From a virus, in the IMG/VR virus record IMGVR_UViG_3300015206_000003, positions 1-47,562 of that record: a stretch of DNA of 47,562 nucleotides. One strand, written 5' to 3'. The notes under the pieces were generated by a model. The model did not search any database, was not told the DNA's origin, and saw nothing but the letters and a program-made list of their open reading frames with translations. Below are positions 22,480-31,382 of this stretch, piece by piece. Positions within the stretch are counted from its first letter, which is position 1. Every line of letters starts with the position of its first letter. The position numbers were made by a program, and so were the translations under genes.

Positions 22480-24237
22480 TCATCGTAGCCTCACGTTCGT
22501 CCCGCGGCGGTCGTCGTTCGCCCGCGGCGGCTGTCCGTATCGTCGCATTTCGGGCGCCTTCGTTCCGGACGGTAGCACCGGAACCGGCCGCGGCATGCGC
22601 AGAATGACGACGCACGCGAGCGCCAGCGCGATCACCGTATCGTCGTGGCAACCCGATTGGTGCTCTGCCTTGCCGGTTTTCTTGATGACGAACGTGAGCA
22701 GCTCCTGTTGCGTGATCGGATCGTGGATCGCGAGCGAATCCTGACGGATCAGTTCATCGAGCATTGAGATGAGCAGCGGCCGCGAAACGCCGCCCGTTTC
22801 CCATCCGAGTTTGTCCGAGCGCGTCTGCGGGTCCTGGTCCGCCGCGACCGATCGGTGATAGAGCAGCGAGCGCGGATAGTCGGCATTCATTACCGCTTCG
22901 AGCATCGAGACGCCGCCGCCGCCCGGGTTGATCTCGCCACAGAGCTGCGCCATGTTGTACCAGCGGCAGACCCGCGCCATGTAGCGGCCGGTCTCGCCCG
23001 GCATCATGCGGGCGCGCAGCACGGCCACCTGTTCGCCCGTATCGCGATCGAGCATCTGGCCCACGCTGTAATCCGGATCCGACTGCCCGTCGCCCTCGGT
23101 GACGTCGACGCCTTGGGCGCAGTCGGCGCCGCAGGCGTACAGTCTCCCCTTCTCCGGACGTTTCCAGACTCGTAACGCGCCGTGTTGGCCCGGGTGGAAC
23201 ACGAGGCGCTTCTCTTCGTCCGTCTCGTCGATCCGCAGCTCACCCACCATCGGATCGCGCTGGATCGGCATGCGCTGGATGTGCGGAACGCTGAAACGAT
23301 TGCGTGACGACGCCGTAAACGCTTCTTCAGGCGTCGCCGGGTGCTCGCGTTTGAACCGCGTTTCGTCGCGTGCGCAGTCGTTGATGATCGTCCATCGGCG
23401 CCAGGCAAGCTGTTCGAGCGAGAGATTGAAGCGGGCTTTCAGCTCCCACTCCTCTTTCGATAGAACGTCCTGGAATTTGTCGGGCGCGACCGTGAGACGC
23501 ATCCGGTTGTCGGGATGCTCCCACCAGCCCATGAACAGGCCGAGCCAGTCGGATTCGCTCGCGGGATCCATCGCGTCCTGCCACATCTTGTGAAACGTGT
23601 CGCCGATCGTTTTCGCCGTCCCCTCGATCACGGCGCAGGTTTCGGGCAGTTTCGGGACTGCGGACATTACCGCTGTCAGCGTGTCGAGAGGACGGTCGTA
23701 GTAGGGGAATTCCGAGAAATGGACGTTTGTAAGACGGAACGAGCGGCCGAAGTTCAATGAGCCCGCCGTCTTGACCTGTATCCATGAGCTTTCCGGATCG
23801 CCCGCGTATTCGTAGTTGATCCGGTCGGTCAGGGGTACGGACGGCGGCAGCGCGATCTTGCCGGCGAACGGCTTGTAACGCTCATGAAACCGTTTGTAGA
23901 TCCGGAAGATGTTGTCCGTCGACGTCGCATCGTGCGCGATCACGGCCGTGTGGACGCCCGCCGTGAACGCCGTCGACTGAAAAAACTGCGCCGCGGCGCC
24001 CGTCGTCGCCTGAATCCGCCTGCTCTTCAGGTATATGAGTCTGACGGGAACGCCCTTCGCACGTTGCTTCTTGATCGCGGCCTGCAGGCGGATCTGCCCC
24101 GGGCCGAGGACCATCGGGACGATTTCCTTCGCTTCGGTCTCGACGACGAGCGACGAACGGCAGAAACTCTCATGATTCCTGAACTCGCGGTAGACGAGGT
24201 CGAGATCGGCAGCGCTCATCGTTTCGACGTTACTCAC
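22480..24237 (-). CDS. terL: Terminase large subunit
   Basis: 585 residues. The ATPase half has a degenerate Walker A-type loop, YLKSRRIQATTGAAAQF near residue 75, and a Walker B-like strand LTNVHFSEFPYY near 170. The nuclease half (RNaseH-like fold) has the acidic ligands in GADCAQGVDVTEG near 370 and HDDTVIALALA near 530. This order is characteristic of phage TerL, which packages DNA into the capsid and cuts it. The start is GTG 24237; ATG at 24219 (MSAADLDLVYREF) is an alternative. It lies behind the sigma-factor gene in the same unit. Confidence 0.95.
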   Translation of the reverse strand: MSNVETMSAADLDLVYREFRNHESFCRSSLVVETEAKEIVPMVLGPGQIRLQAAIKKQRAKGVPVRLIYLKSRRIQATTGAAAQFFQSTAFTAGVHTAVIAHDATSTDNIFRIYKRFHERYKPFAGKIALPPSVPLTDRINYEYAGDPESSWIQVKTAGSLNFGRSFRLTNVHFSEFPYYDRPLDTLTAVMSAVPKLPETCAVIEGTAKTIGDTFHKMWQDAMDPASESDWLGLFMGWWEHPDNRMRLTVAPDKFQDVLSKEEWELKARFNLSLEQLAWRRWTIINDCARDETRFKREHPATPEEAFTASSRNRFSVPHIQRMPIQRDPMVGELRIDETDEEKRLVFHPGQHGALRVWKRPEKGRLYACGADCAQGVDVTEGDGQSDPDYSVGQMLDRDTGEQVAVLRARMMPGETGRYMARVCRWYNMAQLCGEINPGGGGVSMLEAVMNADYPRSLLYHRSVAADQDPQTRSDKLGWETGGVSRPLLISMLDELIRQDSLAIHDPITQQELLTFVIKKTGKAEHQSGCHDDTVIALALACVVILRMPRPVPVLPSGTKAPEMRRYGQPPRANDDRRGTNVRLR

Positions 24238-24420: not shown

Positions 24421-24638
24421 TCGCCCCTCGTGATGAAGTAGATCGGCGACTGGCAGGCGATCGCGTCGTGGGCGAGCTTCGTCATGGCTTCGAGTTGCCG
24501 ATCCCGCGCCCCGTCGTATTTGTCGAGCAGCTTCTCGAATTCGGCGAGCGAACACTCGCGCGACGCCTGGTAGAACGTCCGGACGAACGCCTGCCGTACC
24601 CCGTCGGCGAGGATCGTACGTGACGCCTTGTCTTTCAT
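24417..24638 (-). CDS. Hypothetical protein (73 aa)
   Basis: Soluble and helical (GVRQAFVRTFYQASRECSLA, FEKLLDKYDGARDRQLEAM). ATG overlaps the sigma stop as ATGA, so it is coupled to the sigma gene. It could be a partner of the sigma factor (for example an anti-sigma or modulator), which is only a guess from position. Confidence 0.6.
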   Translation of the reverse strand: MKDKASRTILADGVRQAFVRTFYQASRECSLAEFEKLLDKYDGARDRQLEAMTKLAHDAIACQSPIYFITRGE

Positions 24639-25255
24639 TCGCCTCTCACGCTGATTCCCACCATCGTACGCGCTTCCGCCAATTTAGCCCGCGTCCACGT
24701 CACGCTGCGTCCGACCTGCCGGGCCGTGACGGCGAGCGGCTGGCCGGCGAGCTGGCCACGCAGAACGCTCCGTTCGAGCGTCGGCAGCGCACGTATAGCG
24801 TTCTGCAAGACCCGGTGGATCTGCTCGCGTTCGGCCTGATCGTACGCGCTGGCGGTCCGATCGGTGTCGAGCGCGGGCGGCAGCCAGCCATCGTTAGCCT
24901 GTGCAATGGCTTGCAGCGATACGTTGCGCTCCTCGCGGTATGCACGCCGTTTCTGCGAATCGATGATGGCGCCGCGGACGCGGAAGTACGCATACGCTTC
25001 GAAGCCCGCTTGCGAGGCGCGCGACGGGCGATACGCATTCGCGGCCTTCACGAGCCCGACGTTTCCCGCCTGCGCGAGATCGCGAATGTCGATCGTGGGC
25101 GAGAACATCCAGCGGACCTCGCGCGCCACTCTGAGCACCATCGGGAGCAGCTCGACGATGGCGCGTTCGCGGTTCCAGCGTTTCCACGCCCCGTAGGCGC
25201 CCGCTTCCGATAGGGTTTTCCGTGTAACTGCCTGAGCCGACGAGCGCTCATGCAC
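24635..25255 (-). CDS. Phage-encoded sigma-70 family factor (FliA/WhiG-like)
   Basis: 206 residues from GTG 25255. Region 2 is clear (about residues 45-105): DIRDLAQAGNVGLVKAANAY, then FEAYAYFRVRGAIIDSQKR, with the conserved DLxQxGxxGL and YAxFRxRGAIxD residues for core binding and -10 recognition. Region 4 is near 150-200: ALPTLERSVLRGQLAGQPL and a helix-turn-helix VTARQVGRSVTWTRAKLAEA. Region 1.1 is absent and the linker is short, as in FliA/WhiG-type factors. It would redirect host RNA polymerase to phage late promoters. The start is supported by the stop of the preceding small gene just upstream. Confidence 0.85.
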   Translation of the reverse strand: MHERSSAQAVTRKTLSEAGAYGAWKRWNRERAIVELLPMVLRVAREVRWMFSPTIDIRDLAQAGNVGLVKAANAYRPSRASQAGFEAYAYFRVRGAIIDSQKRRAYREERNVSLQAIAQANDGWLPPALDTDRTASAYDQAEREQIHRVLQNAIRALPTLERSVLRGQLAGQPLAVTARQVGRSVTWTRAKLAEARTMVGISVRGE

Positions 25256-25274
25256 GATGTAGAAGTCCCAAAGG

Positions 25275-25421
25275 TTACTTGTGAGTGACAGGTTTTGCCG
25301 CCTCACGAGCGACCTTTTTCGCCGCCTCGCGGGCAACGGCGGCGGCATGGCGCTTCGCGACGCCTGCCAGCCGAACCCGCTCGCGAACTTGAAGGACATA
25401 CGAATCCCACAGTTTACTCAT
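25275..25421 (-). CDS. Small basic Ala/Lys-rich protein (48 aa)
   Basis: ATG 25421 overlaps the end of the HGG gene. After SKLWDSYVLQVRERVRLAG it becomes a basic Ala-rich helix (KRHAAAVAREAAKKVAREAA), resembling small DNA-associated helices. It sits directly before the sigma gene. The function is unknown. Confidence 0.5.
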   Translation of the reverse strand: MSKLWDSYVLQVRERVRLAGVAKRHAAAVAREAAKKVAREAAKPVTHK

Positions 25422-27183: not shown

Positions 27184-27753
27184 ATGGCAACCAACGGATT
27201 CTATCCGCAGAACGGCAGCGCGGTCATGCCGCCCACTGGCAAGTTCAAACCGACGGTTGGACTGCCGCAGATCGTAGCGCTCGCCGCCGTAACGGGCGAG
27301 ATGGTGTCGTCGCAGTTTGGCGAGAGCGAAGTAAAGCTGATGCTGACCAACGGACAGCCCTGGTACGTCGCGCAGGCGATGGCGGACGCGATCCGCACGT
27401 CGGGCATTCAGCCGAGGCAGCAACTCGAAGTCACCAAAACGGGTAAAGGACCGATGGACTGGAAGATCGTGCCGTTACAGGCTCATTTGGGGGGAGCCCC
27501 TGCGGCCGCGCCTCCGCAGACGGTAGTTGCAGGGACTCCCGCGGCTGCGCAACCGCTCGCAACATCGCAACAGACACAGCATAGCGCCCCCAAGTCGCAG
27601 CTCGCGGCTTGCTTCGAACAGGCGTGCGACGCCATCAAGGGCGCGCAGGCCTACGCGAACAGCATCGGCCTCGGAATCACGTTCACGTCCGAAGACGTGC
27701 GCTCGACCGCGATCAGCGCGTGCATCGGTTGCCAGAAGGGAGGCTCACGATGA
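27184..27753 (+). CDS. Early DNA-metabolism-type hypothetical protein (189 aa)
   Basis: The N-terminal domain (residues about 10-100) reads KPTVGLPQIVALAAVTGEMV, VKLMLTNGQPWYVAQAMADA and QQLEVTKTGKGPMDWKIVPL, a small beta/alpha unit. A Pro/Ala/Gln linker follows, then a helical C-terminal domain (LAACFEQACDAIKGAQAYAN, GITFTSEDVRSTAISACIG). This two-part layout occurs in early phage proteins next to Gp157-like genes. GGAGG lies about 11 nt before the ATG. A nucleic-acid-related function is possible; no family is named. Confidence 0.65.
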   Translation: MATNGFYPQNGSAVMPPTGKFKPTVGLPQIVALAAVTGEMVSSQFGESEVKLMLTNGQPWYVAQAMADAIRTSGIQPRQQLEVTKTGKGPMDWKIVPLQAHLGGAPAAAPPQTVVAGTPAAAQPLATSQQTQHSAPKSQLAACFEQACDAIKGAQAYANSIGLGITFTSEDVRSTAISACIGCQKGGSR

Positions 27754-28388
27754 CGCCTCCATCACCAGTAGCATCGCTACTCGAAAGCGCTGCCTCGATC
27801 ATCGACTGGTCCGCCTGCGACGTCCCGCCCGGGACGTTCGGGCTGGCCGTCGTTCCGAAGGCGGCGGCGCCACGCGTTTCGTTGCGGGCGCACATCGAAG
27901 GCGTCGAAGGTATCGCCGATACGATCGAAGGCCTCGACGACGAAACGCTTTCGGCCGAAGAACGCGACGAACTGAGCGCCATGCTCATCGCCGCGATCGC
28001 CGGCACGAAACGCAAGGTGGACAACACGTCGAATGTTCTTGCGATGTACGAAGCACTCGAAGCGGGCGCAAAAGCTGAAAAGGAACGTCTCGCCAAACGC
28101 GAGGCGTTCTACGCGCGCCAGATCGAGCGCCTGACCGATTACGTCATCGCCACCATGACGACGTCGAATCTGCCGAAGCTCGAAGGCGAGACGTCGACCT
28201 TCGCGCTCCGGAAGAATCCGCCGTCGGTCGTAATCGAAGCGGGCGCCACGTTCTCGCACGAATTCACGGCGTATCCGGACGCGCCGCCGCCGCGGCCGGA
28301 CAAAGATGCGATTAAGCGCGCACTGAAGGCAGGGCGCGCGATCGAGGGCGCGAGCCTGCAGGCAACGATGCGGCTGGTGCGCTCGTGA
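27750..28388 (+). CDS. Gp157-like phage protein
   Basis: 212 residues; ATG overlaps the previous stop. Central coiled coil (AAIAGTKRKVDNTSNVLAMY, EAGAKAEKERLAKREAFYAR) followed by LTDYVIATMTTSNLPKLEGE, TFALRKNPPSVVI, PDKDAIKRALKAGRAIEGA. The R-K-x-P-P-S-V and D-K-x-A-I-K-x-A-L-K-A-G motifs are characteristic of the Siphovirus Gp157 family, implicated in host resistance or replication-associated roles with unclear mechanism. The N-terminal 60 residues differ from the usual family length. Confidence 0.75.
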   Translation: MTPPSPVASLLESAASIIDWSACDVPPGTFGLAVVPKAAAPRVSLRAHIEGVEGIADTIEGLDDETLSAEERDELSAMLIAAIAGTKRKVDNTSNVLAMYEALEAGAKAEKERLAKREAFYARQIERLTDYVIATMTTSNLPKLEGETSTFALRKNPPSVVIEAGATFSHEFTAYPDAPPPRPDKDAIKRALKAGRAIEGASLQATMRLVRS

Positions 28389-28700: not shown

Positions 28701-29690
28701 TCAGAGGGCGCCGGCGAGAGGATTTCTGCCGGCGAAGAGACGAGTGCCGCGCACGTACATCTGCATCACCTTCGCGCTTTCATGCCCCGACAACTTCATA
28801 ATCTCCTGATCGCTCCTGCCCAATTCGGCCGACGCAGTCACGGCGCCGGCCCGCAGAGAGTGCGCGCCGAACTGTGCGGTATCGAGTCCCGCCCGCGCAA
28901 CCGCCCGCTTGACCACTTCATTGACGGCATCGCCAGCTATTGCCCTGTGCGTCAGCCGGTCGCCTGCCCTGACGGCACAGAAAAGCGGTCCGGCCCAATC
29001 GCCACGCTTCTTGATCCACGCCTTCAGCACCCGAACCGGATCGGTCGCCGCCCGCTTCCCGGGCCATACTGCAATGATGCGTCCGCGCCCGTTCTGGTCC
29101 GTTTTCGATTTTCTGTTGACCACTACGAGCCCCTGCGCATTGAACGTCACGTCGGCGAGTTGCAGCCGTACCAGTTCAGACCGCCGCAGCGACGTGGCGA
29201 AGCCGAGCACAAGCACGGCTCGGTCCCGCATACCAAGATTCGTCTTCGCATCGCAGCCCTGCGCGACGCGAAGAAAGTCGTCTGTTGCCAAAGGGGCTTT
29301 GCCGCGTGGCTGTTCACCGCATTCGCGACGCACCGCGCAAATCACCTGACGGGCATCGGCGAGAACCGGCACCGGCCGGCCTTCCCGCCTGTGTCGATCG
29401 ACGATCGCCGCCAAGTGACGCGCCGCGGTCGAGCAGCGCCGTTCCGCCGCCGAAAGCAGCCAGGTCACGTACAGGCTCGCGGTTTCGGCGTTGCACGGCA
29501 TCGGCACGCGGCCGGCATCAGCGCACCAGCGCTGAAACACAGCCCAATCCGATGCATACCCGCGCACCGTCAGATGCGCCCGCACTGCGTTTCTCAAATC
29601 TTCGCGGCGCCTTCTCAGGGCAGCCATATCGACACCTCCATACTCGAACAGCCGGAGCTGTCCATCCCTTCCGTCGTCATCTTTAGCCAT
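28701..29690 (-). CDS. int: Tyrosine integrase
   Basis: 329 residues. The N-terminal SAM-like part (AVFQRWCADAGRVPMPCNAE) is followed by the catalytic domain with the expected order: Arg in ATSLRRSELVRL near 167, Lys in NRKSKTDQNGRGR near 193, the H-x-x-R box AHSLRAGAVTA near 277, GH in KLSGHESAKVM near 301 and the nucleophile Tyr in MQMYVRG near 311. It catalyses site-specific recombination of phage and host DNA. The gene points leftward between two rightward operons. An attachment site is expected nearby but is not identified. Confidence 0.92.
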   Translation of the reverse strand: MAKDDDGRDGQLRLFEYGGVDMAALRRRREDLRNAVRAHLTVRGYASDWAVFQRWCADAGRVPMPCNAETASLYVTWLLSAAERRCSTAARHLAAIVDRHRREGRPVPVLADARQVICAVRRECGEQPRGKAPLATDDFLRVAQGCDAKTNLGMRDRAVLVLGFATSLRRSELVRLQLADVTFNAQGLVVVNRKSKTDQNGRGRIIAVWPGKRAATDPVRVLKAWIKKRGDWAGPLFCAVRAGDRLTHRAIAGDAVNEVVKRAVARAGLDTAQFGAHSLRAGAVTASAELGRSDQEIMKLSGHESAKVMQMYVRGTRLFAGRNPLAGAL

Positions 29691-29760
29691 CTGGACCCGC
29701 CTAACACAGGCTGTTCAAAAGGTATAACAGTGACAACTCAATCCGCAAGTACCAAAATAT

Positions 29761-30036: not shown

Positions 30037-31113
30037 ATGGCGCAAATGGCGCCCCCCGGGTATCAGTCGAATTACTCGGCGATCCTTGAACTCATCCGCT
30101 ACGGCTATGGAATCTGGACGCCGTCGCAGATGGCAGCCCTGTTATTCCACGCTGAAAGAAGCACCGCGCACGGCCGCGAAGCCGACCAGCACAGCGCTAA
30201 CCAGGCGACGGAGGGAATCTATTCCGTACGCTCGCTGTCGTGGGTCCGCGGGCCATCCGGCCTCTCGAAATCCACCTGGTGCAGGTCCAACAACGAACTC
30301 CTGATCGATCCGGCAAAACCCGAAACCTTAAAAACCGGAGTGGTGCGAAAAATCCTGCGCACGAACCGCTACGGGAAGGACGACCCGACCGAATTTGAGC
30401 TGGACTGGCGAGCCATCAAACGGCGCATCGAAGCATGGAAAGAGCAAAAACGGGACCAGTTATATTCCGAGGGTGAGTGTCCCAATTTGGGACACTCAAA
30501 AGGCGAAGAGACGGTAAAGGGTGTGTCCGAATCTGAGACACTGAGTGTCCCAAATTGGGACACTCAGTGTCTCAATCCAGGACACTCACCACAACATGTG
30601 GAGGATCCGGCCCCAGGGCCCAGGGGTGTGTGTCCCAATTTGGGACACACAGTCAAGTCAAAGTCACTGGTCACAAGAGTCGGTCAGTCACAGCGCGCGC
30701 GCGAAAATCCCAGCGCGACAGAGATTGCTTGTGCCATTGAGGAAGCCAGCGGCGAGCGGCCGACCGACCGACTGACAAACTCAATCCTTCAAACCGCCGA
30801 ACGACTTAGACTCCCGCTCCCGGTAATCGTGCGCTGGATTCACGACAAATGCCACGAAGTCAGAGCCCGCGGATACCCGCTTCGCGCCGGCCTGCTGGAG
30901 GGCGCGGCCAAAACCGAACTCATTAGCTGGTGTAAATCGAATACCCGTTTTGTCGACAACGTCCGGATGCAGATCGAACAGGCAGAATATCGGAAAGAAC
31001 AGGAGAAAAATCAGCAGATGCCCACACAGGAACCCGTCGCCGATCCGGAATTCGCCACCGAGCTGCTGCGCAGCGTCGCCGCGAAAAAAGCTGAGAAAAA
31101 GGCGCAAGGCTGA
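30037..31113 (+). CDS. Replication initiator (O-like) with internal origin
   Basis: 358 residues from ATG 30037 (GTGGGA and an A-run upstream). The N-terminal about 120 residues form a winged-helix-type module (YSAILELIRYGYGIWTPSQM, YSVRSLSWVRGPSGLSKSTW, VRKILRTNRYGKDDPTEFEL). A linker follows whose DNA is made of palindromic iterons (30475-30647), giving repeated peptides such as CPNLGHS. The C-terminal helical part (IACAIEEASGERPTDRLTNS) may recruit a helicase. This layout equals the lambda O type, with the origin inside the gene. No polymerase or helicase gene is present in the window. Confidence 0.75.
   Translation: MAQMAPPGYQSNYSAILELIRYGYGIWTPSQMAALLFHAERSTAHGREADQHSANQATEGIYSVRSLSWVRGPSGLSKSTWCRSNNELLIDPAKPETLKTGVVRKILRTNRYGKDDPTEFELDWRAIKRRIEAWKEQKRDQLYSEGECPNLGHSKGEETVKGVSESETLSVPNWDTQCLNPGHSPQHVEDPAPGPRGVCPNLGHTVKSKSLVTRVGQSQRARENPSATEIACAIEEASGERPTDRLTNSILQTAERLRLPLPVIVRWIHDKCHEVRARGYPLRAGLLEGAAKTELISWCKSNTRFVDNVRMQIEQAEYRKEQEKNQQMPTQEPVADPEFATELLRSVAAKKAEKKAQG
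30475..30647. repeat. Origin iterons: five copies of a 17-bp palindrome
   Basis: Consensus TGTCCCAATTTGGGACA. Copies at 30478-30494 and 30631-30647 (exact), 30546-30562 (exact with central A), 30524-30540 and 30568-30584 (degenerate). The first and third extend to 23-bp palindromes with GAG/CTC flanks. Copies two to four are spaced exactly 22 bp apart, about two helical turns. Located inside the replication gene, they are the likely binding sites of its product. Confidence 0.8.
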
Positions 31114-31115
31114 AT

Positions 31116-31382
31116 ATGCCGTGGCCTACGGAATGGAACCGCGAGAACATCCGCCGCGACCTCGAAGAGGCCACCGGCGGCGGCGTTTCGGTCGACGATC
31201 CCCTGCCCGATACGCTGCTCGCGGTAGCGCAGTCGCTCGACCTGAAGCCGGCCGAGCTGCGCATCTGGATCGGCGACGGGCGCCCGAAGCTCCCCGAGGA
31301 GTGGAACGCCGCGAATCTGACCGCGTGGGCCCGCAGGTACAACCTCGGAAAATTCGCACAGGAGCAAACAACCGAACCATGA
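31116..31382 (+). CDS. Hypothetical early protein (88 aa)
   Basis: Starts two bases after the replication gene stop. Soluble, Trp-rich (PWPTEWNRENIRRDLEEATG, ELRIWIGDGRPKLPEEWNAA). The helical N-terminus could bind a partner. It overlaps the next start (ATGA). The function is unknown. Confidence 0.65.
   Translation: MPWPTEWNRENIRRDLEEATGGGVSVDDPLPDTLLAVAQSLDLKPAELRIWIGDGRPKLPEEWNAANLTAWARRYNLGKFAQEQTTEP

Follow-up and report, generated by a model that had tools for sequence, protein, structure and literature searches.

That an origin of replication can lie inside the gene for its own initiator has been known for decades from phage lambda. Each lambda iteron is an inverted repeat, imperfect and 18-19 bp long (PMC7466680, PMC6022878), and is bound by a dimer of the O protein through its N-terminal DNA-binding domain, the dimers then assembling into the O-some, while the C-terminal part of O contacts P and P brings DnaB (PMC6022878, PMC3985674). 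For phage P27 it is reported that an origin plasmid lost all ability to transform when its iterons carried synonymous changes (PMC7466680). The gene considered here, at 30037-31113 on the plus strand of an uncultivated phage, contains a set of repeated palindromes whose arrangement points to an origin of the same kind, and we would put at roughly three in four the probability that it encodes a diverged initiator with a lambda-type origin embedded in its coding sequence.

The window, by which we mean the whole stretch of DNA that was analysed, comprises the complete virus record of 47,562 bases (62% GC) and has the gene content of a tailed phage, with genes for a terminase (22480-24237, minus strand), a Gam-like protein (27609-28388, plus strand) and, beside the proposed origin gene, a tyrosine recombinase (28701-29690, minus strand; phrog_216 integrase, E 2e-18) that has relatives in five loci. 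P1 Cre and the recombinase of Streptomyces phage ZL12 are among the phage matches listed for this recombinase, and a search for a lox-like site near it gave no convincing candidate. Close to the terminase, at 24635-25399, lies a gene for a sigma-factor-like protein (PHROG RNA polymerase sigma factor, 2.6e-6). Scans of the window against Rfam and for tRNA genes gave no matches, nor did megablast of its 23-40 kb portion against phages. The earlier statement that the window lacks a DNA polymerase holds within a Pfam scan that covered 59 ORFs of the window, among whose families no helicase loader was recognised either. The cumulative GC skew reaches a local minimum at about 31-32 kb, to which we give no weight because plus-strand genes sit there.

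The proposed initiator gene begins with an ATG preceded by a GGAAG stretch, within an open frame that itself extends back to 29734, and encodes 358 residues. Between 30478 and 30647, corresponding to codons 148-205, it contains five copies of a 17-bp palindrome, TGTCCCAANTTGGGACA. The first (30478-30494), third (30546-30562) and fifth (30631-30647) match it without mismatch and form all eight arm pairs; the second (30524-30540) and fourth (30568-30584) are degenerate, with three and four mismatches and with five and four of the eight pairs respectively. Steps from start to start are 46, 22, 22 and 63 bp, and the third copy sits at the centre of a longer, perfect palindrome of 41 bp (30534-30574) whose ends reach into both degenerate neighbours. 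When up to two mismatches are allowed, the whole record contains no other copy. These coordinates bear out an earlier note in its count of five iterons within the gene, three of them at 22-bp spacing, and correct its division of the best copies into two exact ones and one with a central A: the palindrome is of odd length with an unpaired centre, so that three copies are equally exact. The same note had the sites encoding a repeated peptide, which is true of two copies, where CPNLGHS (copy 1) and CPNLGHT (copy 5) are read in frame 0; the other three read differently, as VSESETL (copy 2, frame 1), SVPNWDT (copy 3, frame 2) and CLNPGHS (copy 4, frame 0). Since the five copies occupy all three frames, it seems to be the DNA rather than the peptide that is under selection at the repeats.

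Chance is a poor explanation of the array. Counted as strand-matches, TGTCCCAANTTGGGACA was found seven times, against a mean of 0.03 and a maximum of one in dinucleotide shuffles of the window. The gene was also run through a detector for repeated dyads, which requires two 7-base arms with at most one mismatch, a centre of equal length, and copies alike within three bases and all within 250 bp; it gave four copies, a number reached by none of 200 synonymous-codon shuffles (largest, three). Among the 35 other window ORFs examined in this way, 34 gave one copy and the remaining one gave two. As a positive control the iterons of lambda O were found by the same detector (0/200 shuffles).

The protein itself is little help in placing the gene. 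Its 358 residues have no Pfam match at E up to 10, the best PHROG match (phrog_28080, E 0.056) is to a family of unknown function, and no Phage_rep_O or HTH_36 domain, nor any other domain on either flank of the repeats, was recognised; by these comparisons the window protein is outside the Phage_rep_O family. A sequence search of solved structures returned three weak matches to ribosomal proteins only, alignment to a winged-helix profile had a probability of 0.9%, and AlphaFold2 run on the single sequence gave a mean pLDDT of 42 and an unusable fold. Nothing credible was recovered as a homologue from viral contigs with the whole protein, its N-terminal part or its C-terminal part as queries, nor from phages, plasmids, 299 Pseudomonadota genomes and 199 Planctomycetota genomes; eight weak genome matches were judged to be chance, and the five of these that were inspected all lay over other genes. 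In GC content the region of the gene ranks with the lowest kilobases of the window, with 60-mers of 63% and 60% AT some 700 bp upstream of the repeats; at the repeats themselves the best 60-mer reaches 53% AT, and no marked AT-rich tract was found adjoining them.

Directly downstream, at 31116-31382 on the plus strand, lies a small conserved gene whose 88-residue product has no family match and which is recovered by tblastn at 44-46% identity in three related loci (L063, L066 and L068). The part of the proposed initiator behind the repeats (30700-31113) resembles this product (hhalign E 5.1e-5; blastp 0.013), the two sharing an EEA(S/T)G ... WI.D stretch that is conserved in the relatives of the smaller protein. 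The resemblance may mark a partner-binding module, although this is a guess.

As no family match, usable fold, loader gene or marked AT-rich tract was found, we infer from layout and from comparison with other phages that the protein is an initiator, and its winged helix, its binding of the sites as dimers, the local unwinding and the recruitment of host proteins are likewise inferred. In the mechanism that we propose, the five palindromes in the linker region of 30037-31113 would be bound by the product of the gene itself, probably in the form of dimers that use an N-terminal winged helix; at steps of 22 bp, or some two turns of the helix, neighbouring dimers would sit on one face of the DNA, where they could assemble into an O-some-like complex and unwind the DNA locally, and the C-terminal part would recruit the host helicase and its loader. 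Three comparisons make an embedded origin the best supported reading: the same palindrome core occurs at the same place in recognised initiators, among them a homologue of lambda O, the detector also finds the lambda O iterons, and in relatives of the phage the same neighbours flank a different initiator with its own set of palindromes.

The first of these comparisons began from exact searches of viral contigs for TGTCCCAAWTTGGGACA, which gave 39 stretches, mostly with single copies; one of them (L034) stands out, with six half-sites in 300 bp where none of the other 38 has more than four. The paired pattern GTCCCANNNTGGGACN{2,32}CCCANNNTGGG gave 19 stretches, 13 of them distinct after six duplicates had been dropped, and in seven of the 13 (L048, L049, L052, L054, L056, L057 and L061) tandem core palindromes are held by ORFs that we judge to be initiator-like, a judgement backed by a replication or HTH_36 match in five and not in L049 and L052. 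A control pattern with permuted half-sites gave three stretches, two of them distinct and none initiator-like, compared with the 19 for GTCCCA. A stricter form of the core pattern gave 110 stretches in GTDB genomes, only four of which (L080, L089, L099 and L133) are initiator-like, from genomes that between them comprise one each of Phascolarctobacterium, Planctomycetales, Erysipelotrichaceae and Pseudomonadota. The core is thus enriched in initiators among phage contigs and not across bacterial genomes at large.

Twelve ORFs besides that of the window, chosen by eye, carry the same core after an N-terminal domain, and seven of them match an initiator or HTH_36 family below 1e-5: L054 (Phage_rep_O, 5.8e-26, with a tblastn match to lambda O at 7e-11), L056 and L048 (HTH_36, 2.9e-12 and 8.5e-6), and L061, L133, L089 and L057 (PHROG replication initiation, 1e-18, 3.3e-13, 1.8e-13 and 3e-8). 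Some match is found in ten when the weaker ones are included, namely DnaB_2 in L080 (2.4e-4, just under its cut-off) and weak matches in L099 (2.4e-4) and L034 (9.5e-4), the repeats of the last not being significant (14/200 codon shuffles reach the count); L049 and L052 have no useful family match. Over the window gene, L034 and the 11 other ORFs, 59 core copies counted laxly, with up to five mismatches, fall in the three frames in numbers of 25, 22 and 12. A recognition-helix code shared by initiators with GTCCCA sites was looked for by eye and rejected, the same residues being present in initiators with other palindromes.

The core also occurs in other settings. Most of the GTDB stretches are of other kinds, chiefly dispersed arrays in Olsenella and in Bacteroidales of the rumen. 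Those of rumen Prevotella and other Bacteroidales (L076, L079, L081, L085, L086, L087, L098 and others) number several per genome and consist of three or four GTCCCA-N3-TGGGAC palindromes exactly 22 bp apart, mostly outside long ORFs; those of Olsenella SIG37 (L103, L116, L120, L121, L154 and L155) have steps of 32-33 bp, with many in one genome. A viral contig of 44.5 kb, IMGVR_UViG_3300034283_000839 (L002, L006, L012 and L016), has six scattered single exact copies of TGTCCCAAWTTGGGACA, which by analogy look like repressor stoperators.

Closer relatives of the phage were identified through the terminase, which is 61-74% identical in 13 loci, not all of which extend to the origin region. The recombinase and the 31116-31382 gene are both kept in L063, L066 and L068, and L065 keeps the recombinase. 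At the place of the window gene, L063, L065 and L066 have a different initiator-like gene, with an HTH-like stretch recognised by eye before its repeats and, in L065 and L066, no PHROG match. These genes carry palindromes of the GGGTGGGCCTATTCCAGGCCCACCC type (GGGCC-type, with a five-base centre), in five copies at steps of 44, 22, 44 and 22 bp in L066, in five copies in L065 and as a degenerate set in L063. For all three genes, none of 200 codon shuffles reaches the observed count. L068 has the same neighbours and yet another gene, without clear iterons. No similarity was detected by tblastn between the window gene and those at its place in these loci. The three palindrome-bearing relatives share with the window repeated palindromes after an N-terminal part, 22-bp steps and the same neighbours, but differ in having another protein and another palindrome. 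Between neighbours that were kept, then, a different gene goes with a different set of palindromes, an exchange which suggests that close relatives trade replication specificity as a single unit.

How general the arrangement might be was gauged from a sample drawn blind to repeats, 37 loci from searches with Phage_rep_O (7) and HTH_36 (30), matches without a locus being left out. Ten of the 37 genes have at least two palindrome copies and nine of these beat all 40 synonymous shuffles, the exception being L203 (5/40); the nine comprise 3/7 of the Phage_rep_O and 6/30 of the HTH_36 genes. In all nine the domain match is followed, 3-38 codons beyond its end, by the first of the repeats, and the palindrome differs from gene to gene. 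Among 85 control ORFs of the same loci, two copies were found in three and three copies in none. No significant palindrome family was found in the other 28 genes; many of the HTH_36 matches may be ordinary regulators, which would dilute the fraction of genes with repeats. In named phages the repeats are significant in four of eight genes, at 0 or 3 of 200 shuffles (lambda O, the O gene of Pseudomonas FBPa42, Klebsiella RCIP0098 and Psychrobacter Y8A), and not in Vibrio 1.061 (21/200), Vibrio 1.167, Flavonifractor Chenonceau or gene 18 of P22; none of 34 other genes of this set has two copies.

The strongest of the alternatives, which we nevertheless consider unlikely, is that the palindromes are operators at which the product or a phage repressor regulates transcription inside the gene, with no origin. 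Other HTH proteins are indeed encoded elsewhere in the window, and in several contigs (L046, L047, L050, L053 and L123) a pair of core palindromes, at a distance of 31 bp in the viral contigs and of 22 bp in L123, stands just before a short toxin-like ORF whose alignment includes one HigB_toxin member in a Pfam scan; there an operator is natural, and the pair looks like that of a toxin-antitoxin operon. In the window gene, however, the sites begin 441 bp into the coding sequence, well away from 29730-29758, where the one promoter-like match lies; five copies with three in phase are many for an operator, and in seven of the 13 distinct viral clusters the tandem core occurs in initiator-like ORFs.

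Still less probable is a parS-like partition or incompatibility site of an extrachromosomal prophage, bound by a phage or host protein. The likeness of the adjoining recombinase to those of P1 and ZL12 makes such a prophage possible, and two Runella loci (L152 and L164) have genes that by eye are ParB-like and that contain two palindromes of this core at a distance of 45 bp. Against this, ParA is absent among the families found in the 59 window ORFs, where a ddrB-ParB domain is the sole ParB-like match, and where a gene with this layout is recognised, it is a replication initiator. That the repeats are RNA hairpins of an early transcript or selfish palindromic inserts tolerated in a linker is the least probable of all, for although the single strand at 30465-30660 folds far better than shuffles (z = -9.25, with DNA parameters) and a linker tolerates inserts, with copies here in all frames, the copies are limited to one gene of the window and other phage initiators each have their own palindrome with helical spacing, which neither hairpins nor a mobile repeat would need.

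An embedded origin thus remains our preferred reading of the gene, and for the window alone it is a modest surprise because the principle is so old. Were it true, it would locate the replication origin of an uncultivated phage with an initiator that database searches do not recognise. The analysis also shows a means of finding origins from sequence only, namely through repeated palindromes within an early gene that stand up to codon shuffling. A wider proposition, for and against which we see about equal odds, is that winged-helix initiators write their binding palindromes into the linker, so that gene, specificity and origin would form a self-addressed cassette, that relatives swap such cassettes, and that the GTCCCA-N3-TGGGAC class is shared, in every frame, by very different initiators of phages and prophages from at least three bacterial phyla. 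The origin and DNA specificity of an uncharacterised phage initiator would then be readable from its gene alone. A palindrome proper to each initiator, the exchange of cassettes and one class spanning very different initiators may be new to specialists; among the papers listed in a literature search none dealt with the GTCCCA-type class or with the general rule, a weak result given the thin coverage of subscription journals.

Comparison with the known systems supports the suggestion of a lambda-like origin within an initiator gene as the best reading and removes the contrast that had been drawn with it, namely that the sites here, unlike those of lambda, are palindromes: lambda iterons are themselves inverted repeats (PMC7466680, PMC6022878). 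The product is unrelated to O in sequence, and the palindrome and the distance between half-sites are other than those of lambda; the copies number five, two of them degenerate, compared with four. In lambda the gene for the helicase loader P lies directly downstream of O, a place taken in the window by the 88-residue gene with no loader recognised, and no marked AT-rich tract was recognised beside the repeats. The Stx phages P27 and 933W also have their iterons, six in number, inside the O gene (PMC7466680); they are close to lambda, and the window phage is unrelated to them. What the window shares with lambda is the presence of several inverted-repeat iterons within the coding sequence of the (here putative) initiator gene, which follow the N-terminal DNA-binding domain in lambda and lie mid-gene in the window, and the occurrence of TCCC/GGGA in the half-sites of both.
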